A DNA stretch of 64,000 bases from Roseimicrobium gellanilyticum (lineage in GTDB: Bacteria > Verrucomicrobiota > Verrucomicrobiia > Verrucomicrobiales > Verrucomicrobiaceae): positions 1 to 64,000 of the forward strand of contig NZ_QNRR01000019.1 in assembly GCF_003315205.1 (NCBI RefSeq), read 5' to 3'. Under the pieces are notes generated by a model. The model saw nothing but the letters and a program-made list of their open reading frames with translations, was not told the DNA's origin and ran no database searches. Of the stretch, positions 254 to 61,183 are shown one piece after another. The position numbers and the translations under genes were made by a program. Each line of letters begins with the position of its first letter. The first letter of the stretch is position 1.

Positions 254-1483
254 TCACTCCCCTATCCGCCACAGGGTGCTGTCCGTACGCACGAACACAT
301 GCTTACCGCTCAGGGCCGGGGTGCTGAGCACGAGTTCCTTGGTCTCCGCATTCAGCGGAAGCTGCAGCGTGGCAACCACAGCGCCTTCTGCAGCGGTCGT
401 GTCCACCACCTGGAACACGCCCTTCTCGCTCACGGCGACGATGTTCTTTCCTGCGGCCACAGGAGACCCGCTGAAGGGGCCGGTGAGGCGCAGTTTCCAG
501 CCGCGATCGCCCGTGAGGCGATTCGCTTCATTGAGCACGCCGGCGCTGTTGATGGTGAAGATGTGATCTCCCACGACGACCGGGCTGATGGTGCTGGGGT
601 TGAGCTGCTCGGAGCGCCAGATTTGTTCGGGGGCTTCCCCGTTGGTCTTCGGCTTCAACGCGGTGATGCCTTTGGACGCTGCATACACAACGCCATCCAT
701 GACCACACCAGAGGACATGGTGGAGGCACCCTCTTCATACTCCCACAGACGGCTGCCGGTGGCGGCGTCCACACCCACGATGCCCTTGGACGATTGCAGC
801 AGGGTTATCGGAGCGCTGTTCTTGTCCGCCTGCCACACGAGTGGGCTGGTCCAGTTGGCGGACTTGGGACGCTCCATTTTCCAGAGGTTGCGACCCGTGT
901 TGGCATCGACGCCGAGTGTGTAGCTCTCGCTGTCATTCTCAATCATGGTCACCACCGTCTCACCCACCACGATGGGAGAAGACGCCATGCCGAGGCTGTT
1001 GCTGGCATTGGGGTAGTCGATGGTGAGACCGCGCAGCCAGAGCAGATTGCCATCGAGATCAAAGGCTGCGAGATCGTTAGAAGACCACAGCGCGAAGAGA
1101 CGCTTCCCATCGCTGCAGGGTGTGCACGCGGCGACGGAAGACTTGTTGTGCGCCATGGTGCGACCCGTGGCCTTGAGCTGGCGTTCCCAGACTTTGGAGC
1201 CATCGGAGGCCTTGAAGCAGATCACATGCAACCGCTCCTGTCCCGGACCGCTGGAGCAGGTGACGTATACCTTGTCCCCAATGATGATGGGGCTCGCGAG
1301 ACCACGACCGGGAAGCGAAGCGCTCCAGTCGATCTTGGGTTTCACAGGAGCGACAGCGTCGGCTGAATAAGCAGCACTGCCGGGGCCACGGAACTGGGGC
1401 CAGTCGGCGGAGAAAGCACAAGTAATCAGTGAGCAGTACACAGTAATCAGTGAACTGCGGAGGAAGGTATGTGAATGGAACAT
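254..1483 (-). CDS. Secreted PQQ-like beta-propeller protein
   Basis: The protein reads as a BamB/PQQ-dehydrogenase-type propeller: after a signal peptide comes DWPQFRGPG, the usual opening of verrucomicrobial and planctomycete outer-membrane-assembly-like PQQ proteins, then repeated blades such as GDKVYVTC, GKRLFALW and DGVVYAAS. It is probably exported and structural or binding rather than catalytic, since no enzyme domain precedes the propeller. I chose the ATG at 1483, which gives about 409 residues starting directly at the signal peptide; ATG 1519 and a start at 1588 would add an unlikely leader, and 1588 would overlap the upstream gene. Oddity: the hydrophobic core of the signal peptide is encoded by two copies of the ACTGATTACTG intergenic repeat (about 1421-1456). 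It may be cotranscribed with the two minus-strand genes upstream. Confidence 0.8.
   Translation of the reverse strand: MFHSHTFLRSSLITVYCSLITCAFSADWPQFRGPGSAAYSADAVAPVKPKIDWSASLPGRGLASPIIIGDKVYVTCSSGPGQERLHVICFKASDGSKVWERQLKATGRTMAHNKSSVAACTPCSDGKRLFALWSSNDLAAFDLDGNLLWLRGLTIDYPNASNSLGMASSPIVVGETVVTMIENDSESYTLGVDANTGRNLWKMERPKSANWTSPLVWQADKNSAPITLLQSSKGIVGVDAATGSRLWEYEEGASTMSSGVVMDGVVYAASKGITALKPKTNGEAPEQIWRSEQLNPSTISPVVVGDHIFTINSAGVLNEANRLTGDRGWKLRLTGPFSGSPVAAGKNIVAVSEKGVFQVVDTTAAEGAVVATLQLPLNAETKELVLSTPALSGKHVFVRTDSTLWRIGE
1415..1458. repeat. ACTGATTACTG-type repeat inside a signal peptide
   Basis: On the minus strand, TCACTGATTACTG occurs twice within about 40 bases, separated by TGTACTGC. 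The same short motif appears in intergenic DNA at 1961-1990, 38528-38560 and, as a 7-bp tandem, at 45272-45365. Here it is translated in frame as two S-L-I-T units of the leader of the propeller protein. Confidence 0.75.
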
Positions 1484-1960: not shown

Positions 1961-1990
1961 TCTGGTTACTGAATACTGATCACTGATTAC
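1961..1990. repeat. ACTGATCACTGATTACTGG repeat at a gene end
   Basis: A short run of TACTGA/CACTGA/TTACTG units. It overlaps the last codons and the TGA stop of the minus-strand gene ending at 1980, so the C-terminal residues S-N-Q are repeat-encoded. It belongs to the same family as the copies at 1415-1458, 38504-38560 and 45272-45365. Confidence 0.7.
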
Positions 1991-3137
1991 TGGCGATCGC
2001 CGTTCCCGTCGCATCACACACGCGGAGCTGGAATTCCCACTCCACGGTCCACTGCTCGGTCTGCTCGTTCTGGCAGCACTTCACGAGGATGGTGTTCGCG
2101 CCTTTCTTCAGCTTCGCATTGAGCTTGTACTGGTCCATCTTCTGCCCGCGATGGTATTCATCGCGACCGAAGACGAACTCGCCATTCACCCAGACTTTCC
2201 AGGCGTTCTTGCAACCGAGGCGGAGTTCCACCTCACGGGCTTCATCCGTGTTGAAGGTGGCGAGCGCATAGGCGGTGCTGCTCTTGAGCATGCCCAGTGG
2301 CTTGTTGAAGTCGAGCTTGCCGTACTCATGCTTGGTCTCAAAGGGTTGCCATTTCACCTTCGTGGGCTGGCCTTTGTCGTCCTTTTTGCCTTCGTAGGTG
2401 GCCTCGAGCTTGATTTCTTTTTCCGGCGCATAGACGGCATCGAAGCCTTCGCGCTTGGCATTGTCGAACGGCCCGATGACCTGCCAGTTCATGAGAAAGC
2501 CAAAGTGCTTGGGCAAGTCCACCTCCATCCCCAGCTTCGTGAGAGCTTCGGCGATCACCTTCACCTGGTCCTCGTCACGCGCGGCATGGAGTGCCTTGGT
2601 GTAGGATTCCTTCGCGGCAGATTCTTCCTTCGCATCCGCAGCCTTCTTTCCGGCATTGATAAGACGCTGCACCGCGCCACGGCGGAGTTCCTGGGAGGGG
2701 TCATTGAGCAAGGTGGGCTCGATGACATCGGCCTTCGCCACATCGGCCTGACGAATCACATCGAAGGCAAGCAGGCGCGACTGCGGCGTGTGTTTGGTGT
2801 CCTTGAGATAGGACTCGAGTTCCGCAACGGGTAGCGTCTTCTTCGCTGCGACGGCGTCATCCGCGATCACCGTGGCGGCAAGACGCAGCCAGTTGTCCGC
2901 CACCACGTTGCCTTTACCCGAGGCATTCAGAATGGGCAGCAGATTTTCCGGTCCTCCTGCCACGAGTTCCTTCCACGCGGCGCTGGCAGTTTCATTCCCC
3001 TGCCCTTCCTTTCCCACGGCGACAATCGAGTCGAGGGATTTGGCGGCATTGGCGTACAGGGAGGATGCACCCACCATGGGGAGCAACGACAACGAGAGGG
3101 CAGCAACGCGGGTGAGCGTGATTGGGTTCGCAGGCAT
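1980..3137 (-). CDS. Secreted hypothetical protein, helical repeats plus jelly-roll-like domain
   Basis: About 385 residues. An N-terminal signal peptide (hydrophobic LSLSLLPMVGASSLYA) is followed by roughly 180 residues of Ala/Lys-rich helices resembling HEAT/TPR repeats (LLNDPSQELRRGAVQRLINAG). The C-terminal half begins MNWQVIGPFDN and contains KNAWKVWVNGEFVFGRDE and KKGANTILVKCCQNE, the signature of galactose-binding-like domains attached to many verrucomicrobial and planctomycete secreted proteins. ATG 3137 is preferred because it places the signal peptide at the start; ATG 3164 would add nine residues. The stop codon and final residues lie in an intergenic repeat. No enzymatic function can be assigned. 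Confidence 0.7.
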   Translation of the reverse strand: MPANPITLTRVAALSLSLLPMVGASSLYANAAKSLDSIVAVGKEGQGNETASAAWKELVAGGPENLLPILNASGKGNVVADNWLRLAATVIADDAVAAKKTLPVAELESYLKDTKHTPQSRLLAFDVIRQADVAKADVIEPTLLNDPSQELRRGAVQRLINAGKKAADAKEESAAKESYTKALHAARDEDQVKVIAEALTKLGMEVDLPKHFGFLMNWQVIGPFDNAKREGFDAVYAPEKEIKLEATYEGKKDDKGQPTKVKWQPFETKHEYGKLDFNKPLGMLKSSTAYALATFNTDEAREVELRLGCKNAWKVWVNGEFVFGRDEYHRGQKMDQYKLNAKLKKGANTILVKCCQNEQTEQWTVEWEFQLRVCDATGTAIASNQ

Positions 3138-3283
3138 GGCGGAGACGGTGGTGGTGGGCGTCAACAGGCGGAGGTGTAGACTGCAAAACGGGGCGACGCC
3201 AAGAAATCTTTGAGTCGGAACGTGAAGTCTTGGAAATGATCCGGCGTTGCGAGGTGTCGGCCACGCTTCGTGACGCAGGCAGA

Positions 3284-3380
3284 TATAGTGGCCGACTTTC
3301 TCCGAAAGTTGATGCGGGTGAAAGCAACCTCGTTGGTAACATCAACACGCTGCGACTTTCGGAGAAAGTCGGCCACTATA
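3284..3380. repeat. Perfect 26-bp inverted repeat with structured loop
   Basis: The left arm, TATAGTGGCCGACTTTC and onward (3284-3309), is the exact reverse complement of 3355-3380. The 45-base loop holds a second inner stem (GTTGATG near 3308, CATCAAC near 3340). It fills most of the 300-base gap between queD and the downstream minus-strand gene. There is no T-tract, so it does not look like an intrinsic terminator; a REP-type dispersed palindrome is more likely. Confidence 0.8.
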
Positions 3381-9842: not shown

Positions 9843-10207
9843 TGGTTAACCGCAAAGGGGCAAAGCAGCAAAGGACGCAGAGGTTCGACTCAGTTTGGCG
9901 TTGGGATGTATCTTTGTGTTGAGAGGTAGCAGGGCTTTCGAAGAAGAGGAGGCAAAGACGCGCAGGAGCTTTGCGGAGCATCGTGTCCGCTTTGTGCGTT
10001 CAGGTTGCCACACCACCCGACTTCCTGGCGTTTCCGCGGAGGAATTGAAGAGAGAGCACCGCCTGAACGCGTTACAGACGAGAGTTACCCCAGGAGGAAA
10101 AACGCTCCGCTCCCTTTGCCTCCTCTTCTCCGAAACGTTCCACTCCGCGGAGCCCACCCTTTCAAAAAGCTCTGCGTCCTTTGCTTCTTTGCCCCTTTGC
10201 GGTTAAC
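9843..10207. repeat. MITE-like element with 40-bp inverted ends (GGTTAACCGCAAAG family)
   Basis: The left end, CTGGTTAACCGCAAAGGGGC from 9842, and the right end near 10165-10210 are almost exact reverse complements over about 40 bases; the right end reads CCCCTTTGCGGTTAACCAG on the plus strand. The 280-base interior has no open frame of note but carries related subrepeats (GAGGAGGCAAAGACGCGCAGG). The same ends and interior modules recur at 25754-25937, 28787-29099 and 29803-30113. No transposase is present, so it is non-autonomous if mobile. The rest of the gap to 10250 is unremarkable. Confidence 0.75.
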
Positions 10208-15603: not shown

Positions 15604-17130
15604 CTAGGACGAAGCGGGCTTGGTCTCAGCGGGCTTGGTCTCAGCGGGCTTGTCCGCAGGTGCAGGCGTAGCAGGCTTCTCCGCAGGGGCGGGAGCAGCG
15701 GGCTTGGTCTCAGCGGGCTTGTCCGCAGGTGCAGGCGTAGCAGGCTTCTCCGCAGGGGCGGGAGCAGCGGGCTTGGTCTCTGCTGGCTTGTCTGCAGGAG
15801 CTGGCGCGGCGGGTTTGGACTCCACGGGCTTTTCAGCAGCAGGAGCAGGTGCGGGGGCCAAGGCTGCGGGAGGAGCGGAGCGAACAGGGGCAGTTCCCGG
15901 AATCCCCAAGGGCGGGACTGGAGCAGCATTGGGAGGCATCAAGGCGCCAGGGACGGGAGCCTGGGGTGCCGGAGCTTTCTCACGAAGCAACTCGCTGCGC
16001 TTCTTCACGAGCGAGCTCACACCATACTGCGAGACTTCGTACACCCAACCGTGAAATTGCTTCTGTTCATCAGCGAGGCGCTTGGTGAGCAGCTCGTTGC
16101 GCTGCTTGAACTCTTCATCCTTCTGTTTGACGTCAGCCTCCTTCTCATCGGGAGAAGGCTTGCGCACCTTGGGAAGGTCCGCTGTCACTTTCATGGTGAC
16201 AAGATAGGCGGGGAAGCCCTCCTCGGCATCCTTCTTCGCCAGGATTTCCACGTCATAGGTGAATCCCTCGAAGGTGACAATCTTCACTTTGCTCGCTCCC
16301 TTCATGGTGTCCGGCGTCACCTTGTCCTTGAGCAGCACGTCATTGAGTGGCCCCTCAAGCACGCGGGCAGCCAGTCCGGCAGCTTTGGCAGTGTCCAGCT
16401 CTTCACCGGCCGGAGCATTCACAAAGGTAAACGGTGCATCAAGGGTGGCGCGCTCGGCCTTCCAGGAGTCCGCCGCATTTGGGAAATTCACCTCCGCGGA
16501 TTTCACATTGGTGATATTGGGCCAGGCCATGTTGAGCCACAGCCTGGGATCGGACAGCAATTCGTCAAAGCTGTCATCCACCACCCAGACGGTGTCCTTG
16601 TCATTGGGCGTGCGAACGAAACGCTGCGGCGTGGGACCGCCGAACATGTTGGTGCTGGAGGCACCACCGGAACTCTTGGGAGAAGAACCCACCACCACAC
16701 TGCCAAGCAGAGTGCCCTTTTCATCTTCAAGCTTCACTTCAAGTCCGGCGCCTTCGCCATCCTTTTGTTCGCCGGGAGCCAGCACATTCAGCTTCGCCAG
16801 GGAGGACTTGCCCACCTCCTTGCGGTCCTTGATTTTGAGCTCTTCAAGTCCCTGCACCGCGCGCTGGATCTTCTCAAGAGAGGCGGGATAATTGCTACGG
16901 TCCTCCACCACCCACTGGCCTCCTACCACAGCGAGCGAGACTTTCCCCTTCGAGTCATGGACGGTGACCTTATGAACCTTGTCCGAAGGCAGATTGGGCA
17001 GGAGGAACTCCCGCGCATCCGCCTTGCTCAGGCTATAGCCGCTGGTGCGCTCGTCGAATGCCCTCTTGTAGAACAGGGCGAACCCCACAAGTGCGACAAG
17101 TACGATGAGAAGGATTGCCGGTTTTTTCAT
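15604..17130 (-). CDS. DUF4340 protein with Pro/Ala repeat tail
   Basis: 508 residues. One N-terminal membrane helix (ILLIVLVALVGFALFYK), then an extracytoplasmic DUF4340 domain with KVHKVTVHDSKGKVSLAVVGG and WVVEDRSNYPA near its start. DUF4340 proteins usually accompany GldG-like ABC components and may contact substrate outside the membrane. The last 130 residues are Pro/Ala/Lys-rich, including a 23-residue unit (KPATPAPADKPAETKP...) repeated from a 69-bp DNA repeat. It is the last gene of the four-gene minus-strand cluster, 53 bases after the GldG-like gene, and is followed by a terminator. Confidence 0.85.
   Translation of the reverse strand: MKKPAILLIVLVALVGFALFYKRAFDERTSGYSLSKADAREFLLPNLPSDKVHKVTVHDSKGKVSLAVVGGQWVVEDRSNYPASLEKIQRAVQGLEELKIKDRKEVGKSSLAKLNVLAPGEQKDGEGAGLEVKLEDEKGTLLGSVVVGSSPKSSGGASSTNMFGGPTPQRFVRTPNDKDTVWVVDDSFDELLSDPRLWLNMAWPNITNVKSAEVNFPNAADSWKAERATLDAPFTFVNAPAGEELDTAKAAGLAARVLEGPLNDVLLKDKVTPDTMKGASKVKIVTFEGFTYDVEILAKKDAEEGFPAYLVTMKVTADLPKVRKPSPDEKEADVKQKDEEFKQRNELLTKRLADEQKQFHGWVYEVSQYGVSSLVKKRSELLREKAPAPQAPVPGALMPPNAAPVPPLGIPGTAPVRSAPPAALAPAPAPAAEKPVESKPAAPAPADKPAETKPAAPAPAEKPATPAPADKPAETKPAAPAPAEKPATPAPADKPAETKPAETKPASS
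15639..15800. repeat. 69-bp in-frame tandem repeat in the DUF4340 gene
   Basis: The unit beginning TCTCAGCGGGCTTGTCCGCA starts at 15639 and again at 15708, identical over 69 bases (23 codons), with a degenerate third unit after 15777. It encodes the Pro/Ala/Lys tail of the DUF4340 protein and is a likely site of copy-number variation. Confidence 0.8.
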
Positions 17131-17183: not shown

Positions 17184-19283
17184 TCAGTGCGCCGCCTGAA
17201 TGGAGTGGCGACGCATGGCGAGGACAAGACCAATGGCAACGACCAGCAGCGGTACCGCAGCCATGTTCAGCGTGGTGATGATCATCTCGAGGTGATCCTT
17301 CTGCTTCTTCAGCTCCTTCTCAGCATCCCGCTTTTTCTTCTGGATTTCGAGCTGCTTGTCCTTGAGCTGTTGAAGCTGCTGCTTGTTGGGATTGAGGAAG
17401 ACCACGCCCTGCTCCTGCTTCGCACCGGAGAGGCTCGCGATGTCTCCCACGATTTTGTTCAGCGCAGCGTTCTGCTCTTCGATGACGGGGCGGTATTTGG
17501 CTTCCACGGAGGACATGAGTTCGTTCATCTTCGTGAACTCACGGTGGCTGGAAGCGCGGCTGCGCACGGCCACGAGGTCCGAGCTGCCGCTCGCCATTTC
17601 CATGATGTTCAGCATCATGGGGATGTTCGAGTTGATCGGAATAGGAACGGCGCGCCCGGACTGGTCACGCTGCAGGGCGAAGACATCGTAGAGCATATCC
17701 GCGTCTGCGAAGAGGAAGACCATGCCCTCGCTGTTGGCGGACTTTTTCAGGGCCTCCGGAGCTACAGGCGCGGCAGGAGCAGCACCGGCAGGAGCAGCAC
17801 CGGCAGGAGCAGCACCGGCAGGAGCAGCACCGGCAGGAGCAGCGGCTGCGGGAGCCGGGGTTGTCGCTGCGGCAGGAGCGCCCGCATCCTTCTTGTCTTC
17901 ACCACCCGTTTCACCAGGGGCTCCAGGAAGGGTGAGACCGGGCGGCAATCCAGGAATGCCAGGAGGCTTCGGACCGCCAGGAGGCATGGCCTCAGGCTTG
18001 GGCGCGCCTTCCGGGAAGGCAGTGGTAAACGTGCCGGTGAGGCGCAGGGCCAGAATCTTCTTCTTCCCTTCCGGTTGGAAGTTGGTCATCTCCTCATTCT
18101 GCACCTTCTCCGCCTCACTGCTGTCGATGAAGGAAGAGTTCTCAGACGACTCCAGCAGGCGGGTCGCCGTAATGCCTTCTTTCGCGCTGATGCTGAAAGC
18201 GCCCGTGCAGAACATCTGCACCTTCTCCAGTGCGTTGGCAATGGGCTCGCTGGTGTTGATGCCCGCGCGGTCCACGCTGAGGAAAGTGGGAACGGACTTG
18301 CCGCGCCCCACAGTGACGCGGTAGGTCATGTCTGCCACGAGCTGGTGTTTGTTGTACTCCACGCCCCATGCCTTGAAGAGCTCAGGCAAATCCGAATCCT
18401 GCGGCGCCGAGGGCGGAGCCATGCCCATCTGCATCTGGTTGGGGTTGTTGTACGCTTCAGAAACCATGCAACGGGGATCCACCATCGCGATCACCTTGCC
18501 ACCCTTCAGCAGGAACTGGTCGATGGCGAACTGGGCCGCATTCGTGATGCCGCCGGGATGGATGACGAGGAGGATCTTCACATCCGCATCAATGGTGTCC
18601 GAGGACATCGACACTTCGCGCACATCATAGTCCTGGCGCAGATGCTGGATGAACATCCACGGCGGAGGCGTACGCTGCGGCATGCCTGGGAAATTCATGG
18701 CCGGGCCCGCGATGGGCATGGCGCTCATGACGCCCACGACCACGCGACTGCCTTCATTCGACGTGACCTTGGAAATGCCACGGGCGATGTAGTACTCCAG
18801 CGAGGCTTCATCATTGGGATTGAGCAGTGGGATGATCTCCTTGCGATCCACCGCTTCAATGGCGAGGCCCAGGTAGAACTTGCTCGTGCCATCCATACCG
18901 TTGAAGCTCGTGATATCGTCCGCAATGGCCTTGTCCTCGTCCTCAGTGCTCGGGCGGGGGTCGATGCGCTCGAGCTTGATTTTGCCGCGGCCTTCCTTCT
19001 CGATTTCCATGAGCAGGTCACGCACGGGCGTCACGTAGTTGAGCGCCTCCTGCGGCATGATACGGCCGTCTTCCGTGGCGTAGAAGCGCAGCGTCACCGG
19101 CTCATCCGGATTGATGCGGGAGATGATGCGCTTGGTCCCGTCCGACAGGGTGTAGATGTTCTTCTCCGTGAGGTCGAACTTCGGATTCAGGATGTTGAGA
19201 TGCCCGACAATGTAGTTCACCACTACAATGATTCCGATGACGTTCAGCAAGGAAAGGGCTGACACGGTGGCCTTGTGTTTCAT
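17184..19283 (-). CDS. GldG-like ABC transporter auxiliary protein
   Basis: 699 residues. A membrane helix near residues 8-28 (SLLNVIGIIVVVNYIVGHL) and another at the extreme C-terminus (MAAVPLLVVAIGLVLAMRR) bracket an extracytoplasmic region of the ABC_transp_aux/GldG type (FYATEDGRIMPQEALNY, YIARGISKVTSNEGSRVVVGVM, ILLVIHPGGITNAAQFAIDQFLLKGG split here by family motif). Between about 455 and 520 is a Pro/Gly/Ala linker with (AAPAG)n. The last 60 residues before the final helix are a Lys/Gln/Glu-rich coiled coil. It forms a complex with the permease and ATPase upstream. The operon spacing to the permease is about 50 bases. Confidence 0.87.
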   Translation of the reverse strand: MKHKATVSALSLLNVIGIIVVVNYIVGHLNILNPKFDLTEKNIYTLSDGTKRIISRINPDEPVTLRFYATEDGRIMPQEALNYVTPVRDLLMEIEKEGRGKIKLERIDPRPSTEDEDKAIADDITSFNGMDGTSKFYLGLAIEAVDRKEIIPLLNPNDEASLEYYIARGISKVTSNEGSRVVVGVMSAMPIAGPAMNFPGMPQRTPPPWMFIQHLRQDYDVREVSMSSDTIDADVKILLVIHPGGITNAAQFAIDQFLLKGGKVIAMVDPRCMVSEAYNNPNQMQMGMAPPSAPQDSDLPELFKAWGVEYNKHQLVADMTYRVTVGRGKSVPTFLSVDRAGINTSEPIANALEKVQMFCTGAFSISAKEGITATRLLESSENSSFIDSSEAEKVQNEEMTNFQPEGKKKILALRLTGTFTTAFPEGAPKPEAMPPGGPKPPGIPGLPPGLTLPGAPGETGGEDKKDAGAPAAATTPAPAAAAPAGAAPAGAAPAGAAPAGAAPAAPVAPEALKKSANSEGMVFLFADADMLYDVFALQRDQSGRAVPIPINSNIPMMLNIMEMASGSSDLVAVRSRASSHREFTKMNELMSSVEAKYRPVIEEQNAALNKIVGDIASLSGAKQEQGVVFLNPNKQQLQQLKDKQLEIQKKKRDAEKELKKQKDHLEMIITTLNMAAVPLLVVAIGLVLAMRRHSIQAAH
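17772..17846. repeat. 15-bp tandem repeat, five units, in the gldG-like gene
   Basis: GGCAGGAGCAGCACC recurs at 17772, 17787, 17802 and 17817, with a diverged fifth unit at 17832. Translated on the minus strand it gives A-A-P-A-G units in the linker of the GldG-like protein. The repeat length is a multiple of three, so copy changes keep the frame. Confidence 0.85.
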
Positions 19284-25753: not shown

Positions 25754-25937
25754 ACGCTTCTGGTTAACCGCAAAGACGCAGAGAGGCAAAGGACGCAAAG
25801 GAGGGAGAGGGTTTGGCGCTGGGTGTGCGATGTGCTTCGCGGTAACAACGTCTCGAAGTAGAGGAGGCAGAGACGCGCAGGTCGCGTGGACGGGTGTCAT
25901 CCAAACTCTTGTACCTTTTTGCGCTTTTTTGCGGCTA
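25754..25937. repeat. GGTTAACCGCAAAG-family element
   Basis: Starts with CTTCTGGTTAACCGCAAAGA and ends TTTTTTGCGGCTAA. Internal GAGGCAGAGACGCGCAGGTC and CATCCAAACTCTTGTACC match the interiors of the elements at 28787-29099 and 29803-30113. It lacks the TTAGGCGT module those copies carry. Confidence 0.75.
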
Positions 25938-28786: not shown

Positions 28787-29099
28787 AACGCAAAGCAGCA
28801 GAGCAGCAAAGAAACTGAAGGAGGTTAGGCGTCCCCGCCTGACAGCGGGCGTTAGGCGTCTCGCCTGACCGACACTCCGCTCACCACTCGCTCTTCACCT
28901 TGCATGGCCGATTCTAGTTAACCGCAAAGAAGCAGAGAGGCAAAGGACGCAGAGGATGGAGTGGGTTTGGGTGCAGGGGACAGGATGCGTGCAGTGAGGT
29001 GGCCACGTCTCGATGCAGAGGTGGCAAAGACGCGCAGGTCTCGTGGATGAGTGCTATCCAAACTCTTGTGCCTTTTTGCGTTTTTTTGCGGCTAACCCT
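28787..29099. repeat. Left arm of a 310-bp long inverted repeat
   Basis: Runs from AACGCAAAGCAGCAGAGCAG to TTTTTTGCGGCTAACCC and is the near-exact reverse complement of 29803-30113, apart from a diverged stretch of about 30 bases in the middle. It is modular: an AACGCAAAGCAGC start, two TTAGGCGT...CGCCTGAC hairpins, then a GTTAACCGCAAAG element like that at 25754-25937. Together with its partner it brackets the gene at 29155-29658. Confidence 0.85.
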
Positions 29100-38197: not shown

Positions 38198-38572
38198 AGA
38201 GTATTCAGTAAACAGTAGGCAGTGTTCAGCAGGCAGTAAGTGGTGAGTAGTAAGTAGAACTGAGTCCGTGAGTGACAAGTGCGCGTGAGAACATCGCTCA
38301 CACCACCCGCACAAACTCCCACCCCACCTCAACACTCAAGACTGCCCCCGACCTCAGTCTCCGAAGTTTCCTCTGCGTCTCCGTGTCTCTGTGTTGAAGC
38401 CACTGCACACGACCACACCCATCCGCACCCGAACCAACCCCAGCACCAACACCGCCGGCCAGAGACCAGAGCTCCCAGGGCCGCAAAATCACTGACACGT
38501 CCCCTACTCACTACTCACTACTCACTACCTACTGATTACTGAACACTGACTACTGTTCACTCTCCTTTCCCC
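38198..38572. repeat. Gap between sialidase run and transport operon, AGTA/ACTCACT repeats
   Basis: 375 bases with no gene. It begins with a run of CAGTA/AGTAAG units (38207-38262) and ends with CTACTCA repeated about four times (38504-38530), then ACTGATTACTGAACACTGAC. It also holds the low-complexity CCTCTGCGTCTCCGTGTCTC near 38370. These are relatives of the tandem at 45272-45365. The promoter of the transporter operon, if separate, must be within it. Confidence 0.6.
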
Positions 38573-45271: not shown

Positions 45272-45365
45272 CTACTGACTACTGACTACTGACTACTGAC
45301 TACTGACTACTGACTACTGACTACTGACTACTGACTACTGACTACTGACTACTGACTACTGACTA
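45272..45365. repeat. 7-bp tandem repeat (CTACTGA, 13 copies)
   Basis: CTACTGA is repeated 13 times without a mismatch from 45272 to 45362 and then starts a 14th copy. The first three bases of that last copy (45363-45365) are the TAG stop codon of the minus-strand gene. Related degenerate copies lie at 1415-1458, 1961-1990 and 38504-38560. Confidence 0.95.
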
Positions 45366-45974
45366 CTTCCCCTTCTCTCCCACCTTCGGCGGCACATACC
45401 CGATGAACTCCTCCTTGTACTTGAACGACGCCACCACGTCCTCCAGCGCCACCGCATAGCGTGCACTCACATCCGCACTCTCGGCGCTCATCACCATGAA
45501 CGCCACCGCCTTCGGCATCTGCACATAGGCCACTCGCTCCACACGCGGATACGACTCCGTGGCGGGATATTCATTGATGAACCACTCCAGCCCCTCATTC
45601 GTCTTGCCCGACGCCACCAGACGATGCGTGAAGCCAGCACGCTGCTTCGTCATGTGCTCGATTGCCACTTTCACAAACTCCTTCGCATCTTCATGCGTCG
45701 TGCTGGCAATCTTCGCGTACATCACCACCGGCGCAGTATGCCACGTGGCGTCCTTCGGGTAGAGCACGCATGGAAGGCCATCCGCCGCACCCGACTTGTT
45801 GTCCAGCACCCAGCCATTGGGCGCCGCAATGGCAAATGCTGCCTTGGGTCCATACACCACACCGTTGGGGAAAGTCTCCGGCACGTCCGGCACCTGGGCC
45901 CTGAGCACTGCCGCAAACAGGCCGCAGGTCACAATGACGAGCGAAGCCAAGCCAAATCGGGATGCAGTCTTCAT
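45363..45974 (-). CDS. Secreted hypothetical protein
   Basis: About 203 residues: signal peptide (GLASLVIVTCGLFAAVLRAQ), then a compact domain with GPKAAFAIAAPNGWVLD and WFINEYPATESYPRVERVAYVQMPKAVAFMVMSAES. The pattern resembles small secreted proteins with a PsbP/MOG1-like fold, but I would not assert that. The stop codon TAG is supplied by the 7-bp tandem repeat. ATG 45980 two codons upstream is an equal alternative. It is divergent from the NHL protein gene. Confidence 0.7.
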   Translation of the reverse strand: MKTASRFGLASLVIVTCGLFAAVLRAQVPDVPETFPNGVVYGPKAAFAIAAPNGWVLDNKSGAADGLPCVLYPKDATWHTAPVVMYAKIASTTHEDAKEFVKVAIEHMTKQRAGFTHRLVASGKTNEGLEWFINEYPATESYPRVERVAYVQMPKAVAFMVMSAESADVSARYAVALEDVVASFKYKEEFIGYVPPKVGEKGK

Positions 45975-46069
45975 GTTCATTCAGGGATCGAGTGAAGGGC
46001 ACTCCCTGCATGTCCCCGCATGCCAGAATGTGACATTTCACCGAGCCTCCCCCCGCAGACAGATGTCAT

Positions 46070-59949: not shown

Positions 59950-60068
59950 GGGTTGAAGCGGCGAAATGCGCGCACGATCAAACGCTGCCGAGCCAGTTTT
60001 TGCACGGACATTTTTTGTGCCGAATCGGACAGGGTGGCTCGCGGAACTCGCCGGAGTTGATGGTCTAT

Positions 60069-60150
60069 GGTTGATAGTTGATAGCCTGACAGCCGACGAC
60101 CCGACTCGGAAGCTTCCCATGAAGCTCCCTCAGGCTATCAACTATCAACC
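60069..60150. repeat. Perfect 21-bp inverted repeat
   Basis: GGTTGATAGTTGATAGCCTG (from 60069) through 60089 is mirrored exactly by 60130-60150. A further TCAACTATCAACT copy follows at 60152. The 40-base loop includes GAAGCTTCCCATGAAGCT. It lies between the stop of the O-methyltransferase and the start of the oxidoreductase; no T-tract follows on either strand. Confidence 0.85.
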
Positions 60151-60175
60151 CTCAACTATCAACTCCCCCACCCCA

Positions 60176-61183
60176 TCACTTAATCCCCACCACCATCGAC
60201 TCCGGCCCCACCAGATGCTCCACGCGCATGTCACGGAAGCCCACCTCCCGCATCCAGCCGATGCAATCGGCTCCGGTGAAGTCGAAGCCGCCATCCGTCT
60301 CCACGAGCATATTCAGGCTCATCATCAGGCCGAAGGCATTCTGGGAGCGTTCATCATCAATGATGGACTCGTACACCACCACCGCACCACCGGCAGGCAG
60401 GGCGTCATAGGATTTTTTCAGGAGCATCTTCTTTGTCTCCAGATCCCAGTCATGGAGGATGTGGCCCATCAGCACCACATCCGCCTGCGGCAGTGCGTCT
60501 GTGAAGAAGCTGCCTCCCGCAAAAGTCACGCGTTCCTTCAGGCCATTCAGCGCCACGTAGTCTGAGAAAATGGGACCCACCTCAGGCAGGTCAAAGCCAA
60601 TGCCCCGGAGATGCGGATTTTTCAACGCAATCTGGACGGCCAGATCTCCCTGCGCAGTTCCCACATCCACGTACGTTTTGTAGTCCAGCCAGGGGAATTG
60701 TTTCGCGATGGCCATGTTCGCTCCACGACTCACACCAGACATGGCACGGAGGAACTCAGCCAGCCTGGCGGGGTCCTTGTACAGTTCCGCGAAGAGGTCC
60801 TTGCCCTCCAGCTTCTCATTCTGCCGCTCACCCGTGCGCAACGCCGTGGTGAGATTTCCCCAGAAGGGATAGAGCCGGTTGTTTGCCATCTCCAGGATGC
60901 CGCCAATGTAGGAGGGCTTGGCCTTGTCCAGGAACAGGTCCGTTTCCGGTGCATTGCGGTACAGCCCCTCTTCCCGCTGGAGAAACCCCAGGGCCACCAG
61001 CGTATCCAGAAAATCCAACGTGCCTCGCGTGTGCAGCCCCAGCGCCCGCTGCAGGGTGGCCGCATCCTGAGGTGCCTTCGCCAGAAGCGTGAAGACTTCG
61101 AGCTCCACGGCGCTGAGCAGGGTCTTGGCAGGCCAGAAGGCAAGACCGGTCTTGAGGATGTTTTCAGGAGAGATCGGTGTCAT
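60176..61183 (-). CDS. Class I (COMT-type) O-methyltransferase
   Basis: 335 residues. N-terminal winged-helix dimerisation domain ([26 protein letters not shown]), then SAM-binding [13 protein letters not shown] (172-184) and the catalytic HILHDWD (His244) followed by [17 protein letters not shown]. This is the acetylserotonin/hydroxyneurosporene methyltransferase-type fold. The acceptor is probably an aromatic or polyketide hydroxyl, which cannot be fixed here. ATG 61183 is the start. Confidence 0.92.

Follow-up and report, generated by a model that had tools for sequence, protein, structure and literature searches.

Intergenic heptamer arrays as the probable source of a predicted signal peptide core in a Verrucomicrobiaceae propeller protein

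Direct heptamer repeats of the unit TAACTGA are described from Beggiatoaceae, Cyanobacteria and Bacteroidetes. According to the available text, these arrays lie close before start codons, overlap upstream stop codons and are sometimes found inside open reading frames near protein ends (PMC4679880). They are direct with one inverted exception, related heptamers are rare, and the available text mentions neither signal peptides nor Verrucomicrobia (PMC4679880). RU-2, a small mobile sequence of 168 bp, contributes part of the signal peptide predicted for YPO1552 in Yersinia, the one such leader described in the accessible part of that report (PMC2759123). Tandem repeats of the archaeal Borgs are, in the text available, young and independently arisen, and enter proteins, where they create disordered regions (PMC9879509).

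The 64,000-nt stretch of Roseimicrobium gellanilyticum DNA analyzed here (the window) and related genomes contain 7-bp tandems that lie between genes, beside start and stop codons, a property shared with the TAACTGA repeats as far as the available text describes these (PMC4679880). They differ from them in their variable units (ACTGNNN, CTACTGA, CATTCGT, CACTTTT, TTTTAGC and CAGCCTT, none of them the exact TAACTGA unit), in the common inverted pairs and in coding for leader cores. Whereas RU-2 as described in the accessible text is a 168-bp element, the unit here is a 7-mer that differs between genomes and recurs in many genes, and instead of the conserved fixed length of RU-2 the arms and spacers vary by locus, the shortest of the latter being about 15 bp (L084) and the longest several hundred bp. 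Borg repeats, in the text available (PMC9879509), give rise to disordered regions, whereas the short heptamers here give hydrophobic leaders. The literature searched, which included few subscription papers, yielded no report of signal peptides coded by heptamers, nor any of these arrays from Verrucomicrobia. There is one published precedent for a predicted leader built from a repeat (RU-2 in Yersinia) and none for heptamers in that literature, and recurrence across genes and heptamers was not met in it.

The propeller gene (Table 1) was assigned by its longer frame, which matches PF13360 (PQQ_2) in Pfam with an E value of 3.5e-26. From the ATG at 1483 the protein begins with MFHSHTFLRSSLITVYCSLITCAFS, followed by the mature start ADWPQFRG. 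The layout MFHSHTFLR-SSLITVYCSLIT-CAFS|ADWPQ is picked up by a simple signal peptide rule and has the sequence features of a Sec-type leader, i.e., a basic n-region, a hydrophobic core, small residues before the cleavage site and a secreted domain. Its hydropathy of 1.98 lies within the 1.78-2.98 spanned by non-heptamer orthologue leaders. Upstream starts at 1588 or 1519 were excluded, as in the same-genus genome G001 an in-frame stop, shortly upstream of the shared ATG, separates it from that region; the leader there also comprises 25 aa. ADWPQFRG directly follows the leader, and all 42 scored orthologues have a leader at this position.

The preliminary description had proposed that the leader core is coded by two copies of the 13-mer TCACTGATTACTG. 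Both are present, one exact at 1441-1453 (minus strand), the other with one mismatch at 1420-1432 (minus strand). The true unit, however, is the 7-mer ACTGNNN, so that the 13-mer corresponds to about two units, and about five degenerate heptamers (tandem array 1421-1451) make up the coding sequence of the core SSLITVYCSLIT. With up to two mismatches TCACTGATTACTG has six matches in the window against 0.75 expected, a number reached in one of 100 shuffles. Period-7 identity of the leader DNA tops all periods from 4 to 12 and exceeds that of all 500 codon shuffles.

An inverted partner array lies upstream (Table 1). This DNA, taken before to be intergenic (1961-1990), is not purely so, since the upstream gene ends within the array at 1962-1992, with its last codons and its TGA stop (1982-1980). 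In G001 the propeller gene has the same start and its leader MSLSRTIVRSSLITVYCLLNTPAFS keeps the heptamers, while the end of the upstream gene, TAATCAGTAATCAGTATTCAG, matches the leader array in inverted orientation (score 18.5). Between the two genomes 8 of the 25 leader sites differ, and 20 of the first 300 residues of the mature protein. Because G001 shares both the leader heptamers and the inverted arm at the upstream stop, the element spanning upstream stop and propeller start appears to be older than the split within the genus. The ancestral element would have bridged the upstream stop codon and the propeller start codon, and in the window's genome a small gene would now sit between its arms, which are about 510 bp apart. 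This ORF (1528-1938) was present in 5 of 57 genomes searched and had no match in G001; its homologues outside the own genome are 30-43% identical and have no flanking heptamers. Upstream of the neighbouring gene, at 3285-3379, a palindrome of about 95 bp (GTGGCCGACTTTCTCCGAAAGT ... ACTTTCGGAGAAAGTCGGCCAC) was seen, which also occurs in G001 (L032 10-104), matches in both orientations and looks like a small mobile palindrome.

Table 1. Features of the window, followed by heptamer-coded leaders of orthologues and of unrelated genes.
Feature	Positions	Strand	Remarks
Propeller gene, PQQ_2/BamB-like, 409 aa from ATG 1483	254..1483	minus	Pfam PF13360; start kept in G001
Leader-coding stretch of propeller gene, 25 aa, MFHSHTFLRSSLITVYCSLITCAFS	1409..1483	minus	G001 comparison; hydrophobicity in orthologue range
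Degenerate heptamer array ACTGNNN coding the leader's hydrophobic core	1420..1454	minus	pyrimidine-rich strand is coding strand; array scans
Small ORF, 136 aa, between two heptamer arms in the window's genome	1528..1938	minus	
Partner heptamer array, inverted relative to 1420-1454	1962..1992	plus	carries stop codon of upstream gene
Upstream gene, C-terminus ...ASNQ* heptamer-coded	1980..3164	minus	neighbour in G001 and many orthologous loci
Purine-rich heptamer arm	38200..38257		2 nt past stop of gene ending 38197
Pyrimidine-rich heptamer arm, inverted partner of 38200-38257	38504..38560		just before ATG 38573
CTACTGA perfect array, x13.7	45272..45367		edge is TAG stop of ORF 45980..45363
Heptamer arm TTGATAG of inverted pair	60060..60084		
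Heptamer arm CTATCAA, partner of 60060-60084	60135..60164		12 nt from stop of gene 61183..60176
Orthologue leaders, ACTG			own genome, G001
Orthologue leader, CAGCCTT			G021
Orthologue leader, CACTTTT			G004
Orthologue leader, TTTTAGC			G025
Orthologue leaders, CATTCG			G024, G020, G011
Orthologue leader, more degenerate pyrimidine-rich array			G028
Leader MKLLSLFLSTFVILHSSFAADRPNIL			sulfatase; three genomes, with variants
Leaders MKLLALLLSSFVILHSSFSAQPNIIL, MKSLILILTSFVILHSSFAAEQRRPNILF			sulfatase-like
Leader MKTVLAFVILHSSFGILLNAATVDFEKQLLP			PSCyt1 cytochrome-type protein
Leader MKHLLLISFVILHSSFAIAAERSRIL			nucleoside hydrolase
Leader MRRFLIHLSFVILHSSFLASCSP			lipoprotein-like

Of the other places named for the motif, the one at 38528-38560 is part of a longer array that lies just before a start codon, and the CTACTGA tandem at 45272 consists of perfect copies of a sister heptamer and supplies a stop codon (Table 1). 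The inverted pairing of arrays (38200-38257 with 38504-38560, and 60060-60084 with 60135-60164) had not been described. At score 11, 26 period-7 arrays were found in 544 kb of the own genome, against 3, 4, 3, 4 and 1 for periods 5, 8, 10, 11 and 13; periods divisible by three are common, as coding DNA predicts. Arrays lie mostly at gene borders and often form inverted pairs, in which a purine-rich arm follows one gene and a pyrimidine-rich arm adjoins its neighbour. In 29 neighbouring pairs the order was purine-then-pyrimidine in 21, opposite in four and undecided in four. Deep inside called genes were 3 of 62 arrays (G000 set), 0 of 17 (G001) and 5 of 13 (G011), with genes called by a simple home-made codon-bias script and with the G000 and G001 sets including loci selected for having arrays. 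Derivation of the arrays from a known RNA family was rejected, as Rfam gave no match in the window at gathering score.

Several further observations concern the arrays as such. The arms of L084 (17760-17798 and 17814-17852) are near-perfect reverse complements including unit variants and only 15 bp apart, which hints that one may have been copied from the other. One contig end (G000, contig C2, 1181249-1181343) falls inside a CTACTGA array; such arrays therefore interrupt the assembly, and their real length may exceed that seen here. At G000:C8:296222-296447 and G001:C1:1651222-1651431, possibly the same locus, a long CTGCTTA array is accompanied by an inverted partner. The window also holds period-8 arrays (GCAAAGGA / CCTTTGCC, CGCAAAGA and CTCTGTGT; 9852-9875, 10178-10200, 25769-25800, 28790-28811 and 38371-38394) with one apparent inverted pair, possibly a second class of short arrays. 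Two further tandems, of 69 bp (x2.6, 15627-15806) and 15 bp (x4.9, 17771-17843), have periods that are multiples of three and are probably coding.

Leaders were compared across 43 orthologue loci, of which 42 were scored; the truncated L075 was left out, and two duplicates (L062 of L033, L063 of L040) and the distant L064 and L065 were not counted as orthologues. In a codon-shuffle test (500 shuffles each) eight of the 42 leaders had P<=0.02 with period 7 first among periods 4-12, and by array score nine were heptamer-coded, with at least five different heptamers (Table 1). The leader of the same genus has the same repeat DNA, while those of other genera are unrelated, 7 of 40 being made of heptamers of another sequence. 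By array score, heptamer coding was absent from the 198 other signal peptides predicted in G000 and G011. The difference (Fisher 7e-8, and 2.4e-6 with the own genus removed) does not translate into a probability of independent events because the orthologues are related. The control periods 5, 8, 10 and 11 gave no match among the 200 predicted signal peptides of G000 and G011 and a single one among the orthologues (period 10, L034). The stretch L158 8636-8665 was rejected as a second leader of G024, as the frame that follows it is helicase-like and has a poorly placed start.

That T-rich hydrophobic codons look periodic by chance is very improbable. T is common at the second position of such codons, and a few GC-rich leaders give weak shuffle P values, but in seven of the 42 orthologues the observed value was not reached in any of the 500 codon shuffles, the control periods fail, and CATTCGTCATTC-type DNA recurs in unrelated genes.

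Heptamer leaders as a general genome-wide rule were rejected. Among the 200 predicted signal peptides of G000 and G011 the array-score cases were the two orthologues of the propeller gene only, and all three matches among 67 further predicted signal peptides were again orthologues. In a looser codon-shuffle test (P<=0.05) period 7 was found in 10 of 113 (G000) and 3 of 87 (G011) and period 5 in 11 and 14, respectively. Heptamer leaders are thus a small minority, because this test shows no genome-wide excess of period 7.

In the mature-protein tree of the 42 orthologues, with eight rows labelled heptamer, six state changes are needed, five of them forced by starred branches, and seven changes if heptamer types are distinguished. 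Within the clade of G025 near-identical mature proteins carry MKTISMCLMMCLATGVVR-like leaders in several members and MKTTSLLLAFSFYLSASAH-like leaders in others. Heptamer and other orthologue leaders are equally hydrophobic (2.21 and 2.29). Such arrays might also have grown in place, by 7-bp slippage inside pyrimidine-rich leader DNA, with nothing recruited from between genes. This is a real, though clearly the lesser, possibility, since the heptamer of G025 is absent elsewhere (the CTTTTNR pattern matches its CTTTTAG leader array only) and the leader heptamer of G021 is matched at one other genomic place only. The G025 leader is also similar to those of the near relatives L038 and L042, the L046 leader resembles those of its relatives, and most CATTCGT leaders have no upstream arm. 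Against slippage, the leader heptamer family occurs elsewhere in the genomes G000, G001, G011, G020 and G024, an inverted partner lies outside the gene, at the stop of the neighbour, in G001 (TAATCAG), G004 (AAGTGAA) and G011 (AATGACG), and leaders change wholesale between near-identical proteins. Recruitment of repeat DNA into predicted leaders, as first suggested for this gene, is supported: the start does not lie further upstream, and orthologues of other genera do not carry the same leader.

The recurrence of heptamer leaders in unrelated secreted proteins goes beyond that first proposal. Forty genomes of the family were scanned for ATGA, a gap and CATTCGTCATTCNNCATTC, and 16 of them had matches. 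Many matches were judged by eye not to be leaders and set aside, as an ORF can by chance run back through an array that is open in its frame; 15 leaders were kept, chosen by eye as signal-like, one of them being the G024 orthologue of the propeller gene. In related genomes CATTCGT codes for the leader core ("SFVILHSSFA") of unrelated secreted proteins (Table 1). Six proteins were assigned with Pfam (L236 Sulfatase, L175 PSCyt1/WD40, L246 IU_nuc_hydro, L253 Cytochrom_C, L241 BatD and L264 PPC), and other protein names were judged from sequence. For the nucleoside hydrolase a period-7 leader was present at score 9 in 3 of 28 distinct loci (the rows L298-L300, where the best match is a neighbouring paralogue, duplicate others), and the nearest relative, with a mature part 97% identical, has the unrelated leader MKPLLILSVILCALGGSTQAA. 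Leucine replaces the arginine given by CATTCGT in 13 of 14 scored units of the kept leaders versus 16 of 96 elsewhere, a bias that is suggestive only and partly circular because the 15 leaders were picked for their leader-like look. CATTCGT-coded leader segments were also seen in type IV prepilin-like frames (G|FTLLE-like; L172, L174 and L252 in G016, G011 and G059).

An upstream inverted arm at score >=11 was found for only two of the 15 kept leaders (L242 and L196), and therefore the inverted element is not needed for a heptamer leader and was rejected as a requirement. This bears on the reading that an RNA hairpin is what is selected, with arms that base-pair over the start codon and regulate translation of the neighbours or couple it, the peptide being a by-product. 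Compared with shuffles, junction RNAs do show better folding, and the start codon lies in the loop (z of -4.2 in G001, -3.0 in G004, -3.9 in G011 and -1.8 in G025), and the arms abut stop and start codons. However, for six of the nine heptamer-coded orthologue leaders the 200 nt upstream contain no array at score 10, the arms in the window's genome are far apart with an ORF between them, convergent genes (L078, L140) are flanked by arms too, and the arm is missing from most heptamer leaders of other genes. Selection for a hairpin is therefore unlikely as the explanation; a junction hairpin could affect translation and is treated here as a rival or a side effect.

Recruitment of the array as a leader is consistent with the coding properties of heptamers. 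As 7 is not divisible by 3, a perfect heptamer array that lacks stops is translated into one heptapeptide in all three frames. In 81 distinct arrays the mean hydropathy of the translations was +0.65 on the pyrimidine-rich and -0.59 on the purine-rich strand, and a hydropathy of at least 0.8 was reached by 46% and 3%, respectively. In the heptamer-coded leaders the coding strand is the pyrimidine-rich strand. We therefore consider it likely that the propeller leader is a working Sec signal peptide and that its core is the translated pyrimidine-rich arm of one of the family's intergenic 7-bp arrays. Signal peptides tolerate very diverse sequences. Arrays would spread or grow through unconstrained DNA and halt at the first constrained codon. 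Because a leader would demand just a basic start, a hydrophobic core and a cleavage site, an array entering it would be retained if open and hydrophobic, and selection would trim it afterwards. In the best reading, pyrimidine-rich arrays at gene borders are tolerated or recruited where a hydrophobic leader is the sole demand. It is more doubtful that the inverted elements act as portable gene-junction modules, in which the purine-rich arm would close the upstream frame with stop codons, the two arms would make a hairpin of the mRNA around the start codon and the pyrimidine-rich arm would provide a signal peptide in any frame, the leader being swapped while the mature protein stays unchanged.

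Few natural signal peptides have been seen arising from repeat or non-coding DNA in the literature searched. Here, such an origin appears several times in one gene and recurs in unrelated genes, and close relatives that lack arrays serve as controls. The repeated cases together with these relatives therefore make the origin of export signals testable, with regard to which repeats are used, in which frame and under which later selection. That intergenic 7-letter repeats have repeatedly been turned into what is likely the code of an export tag suggests one route to new export signals.
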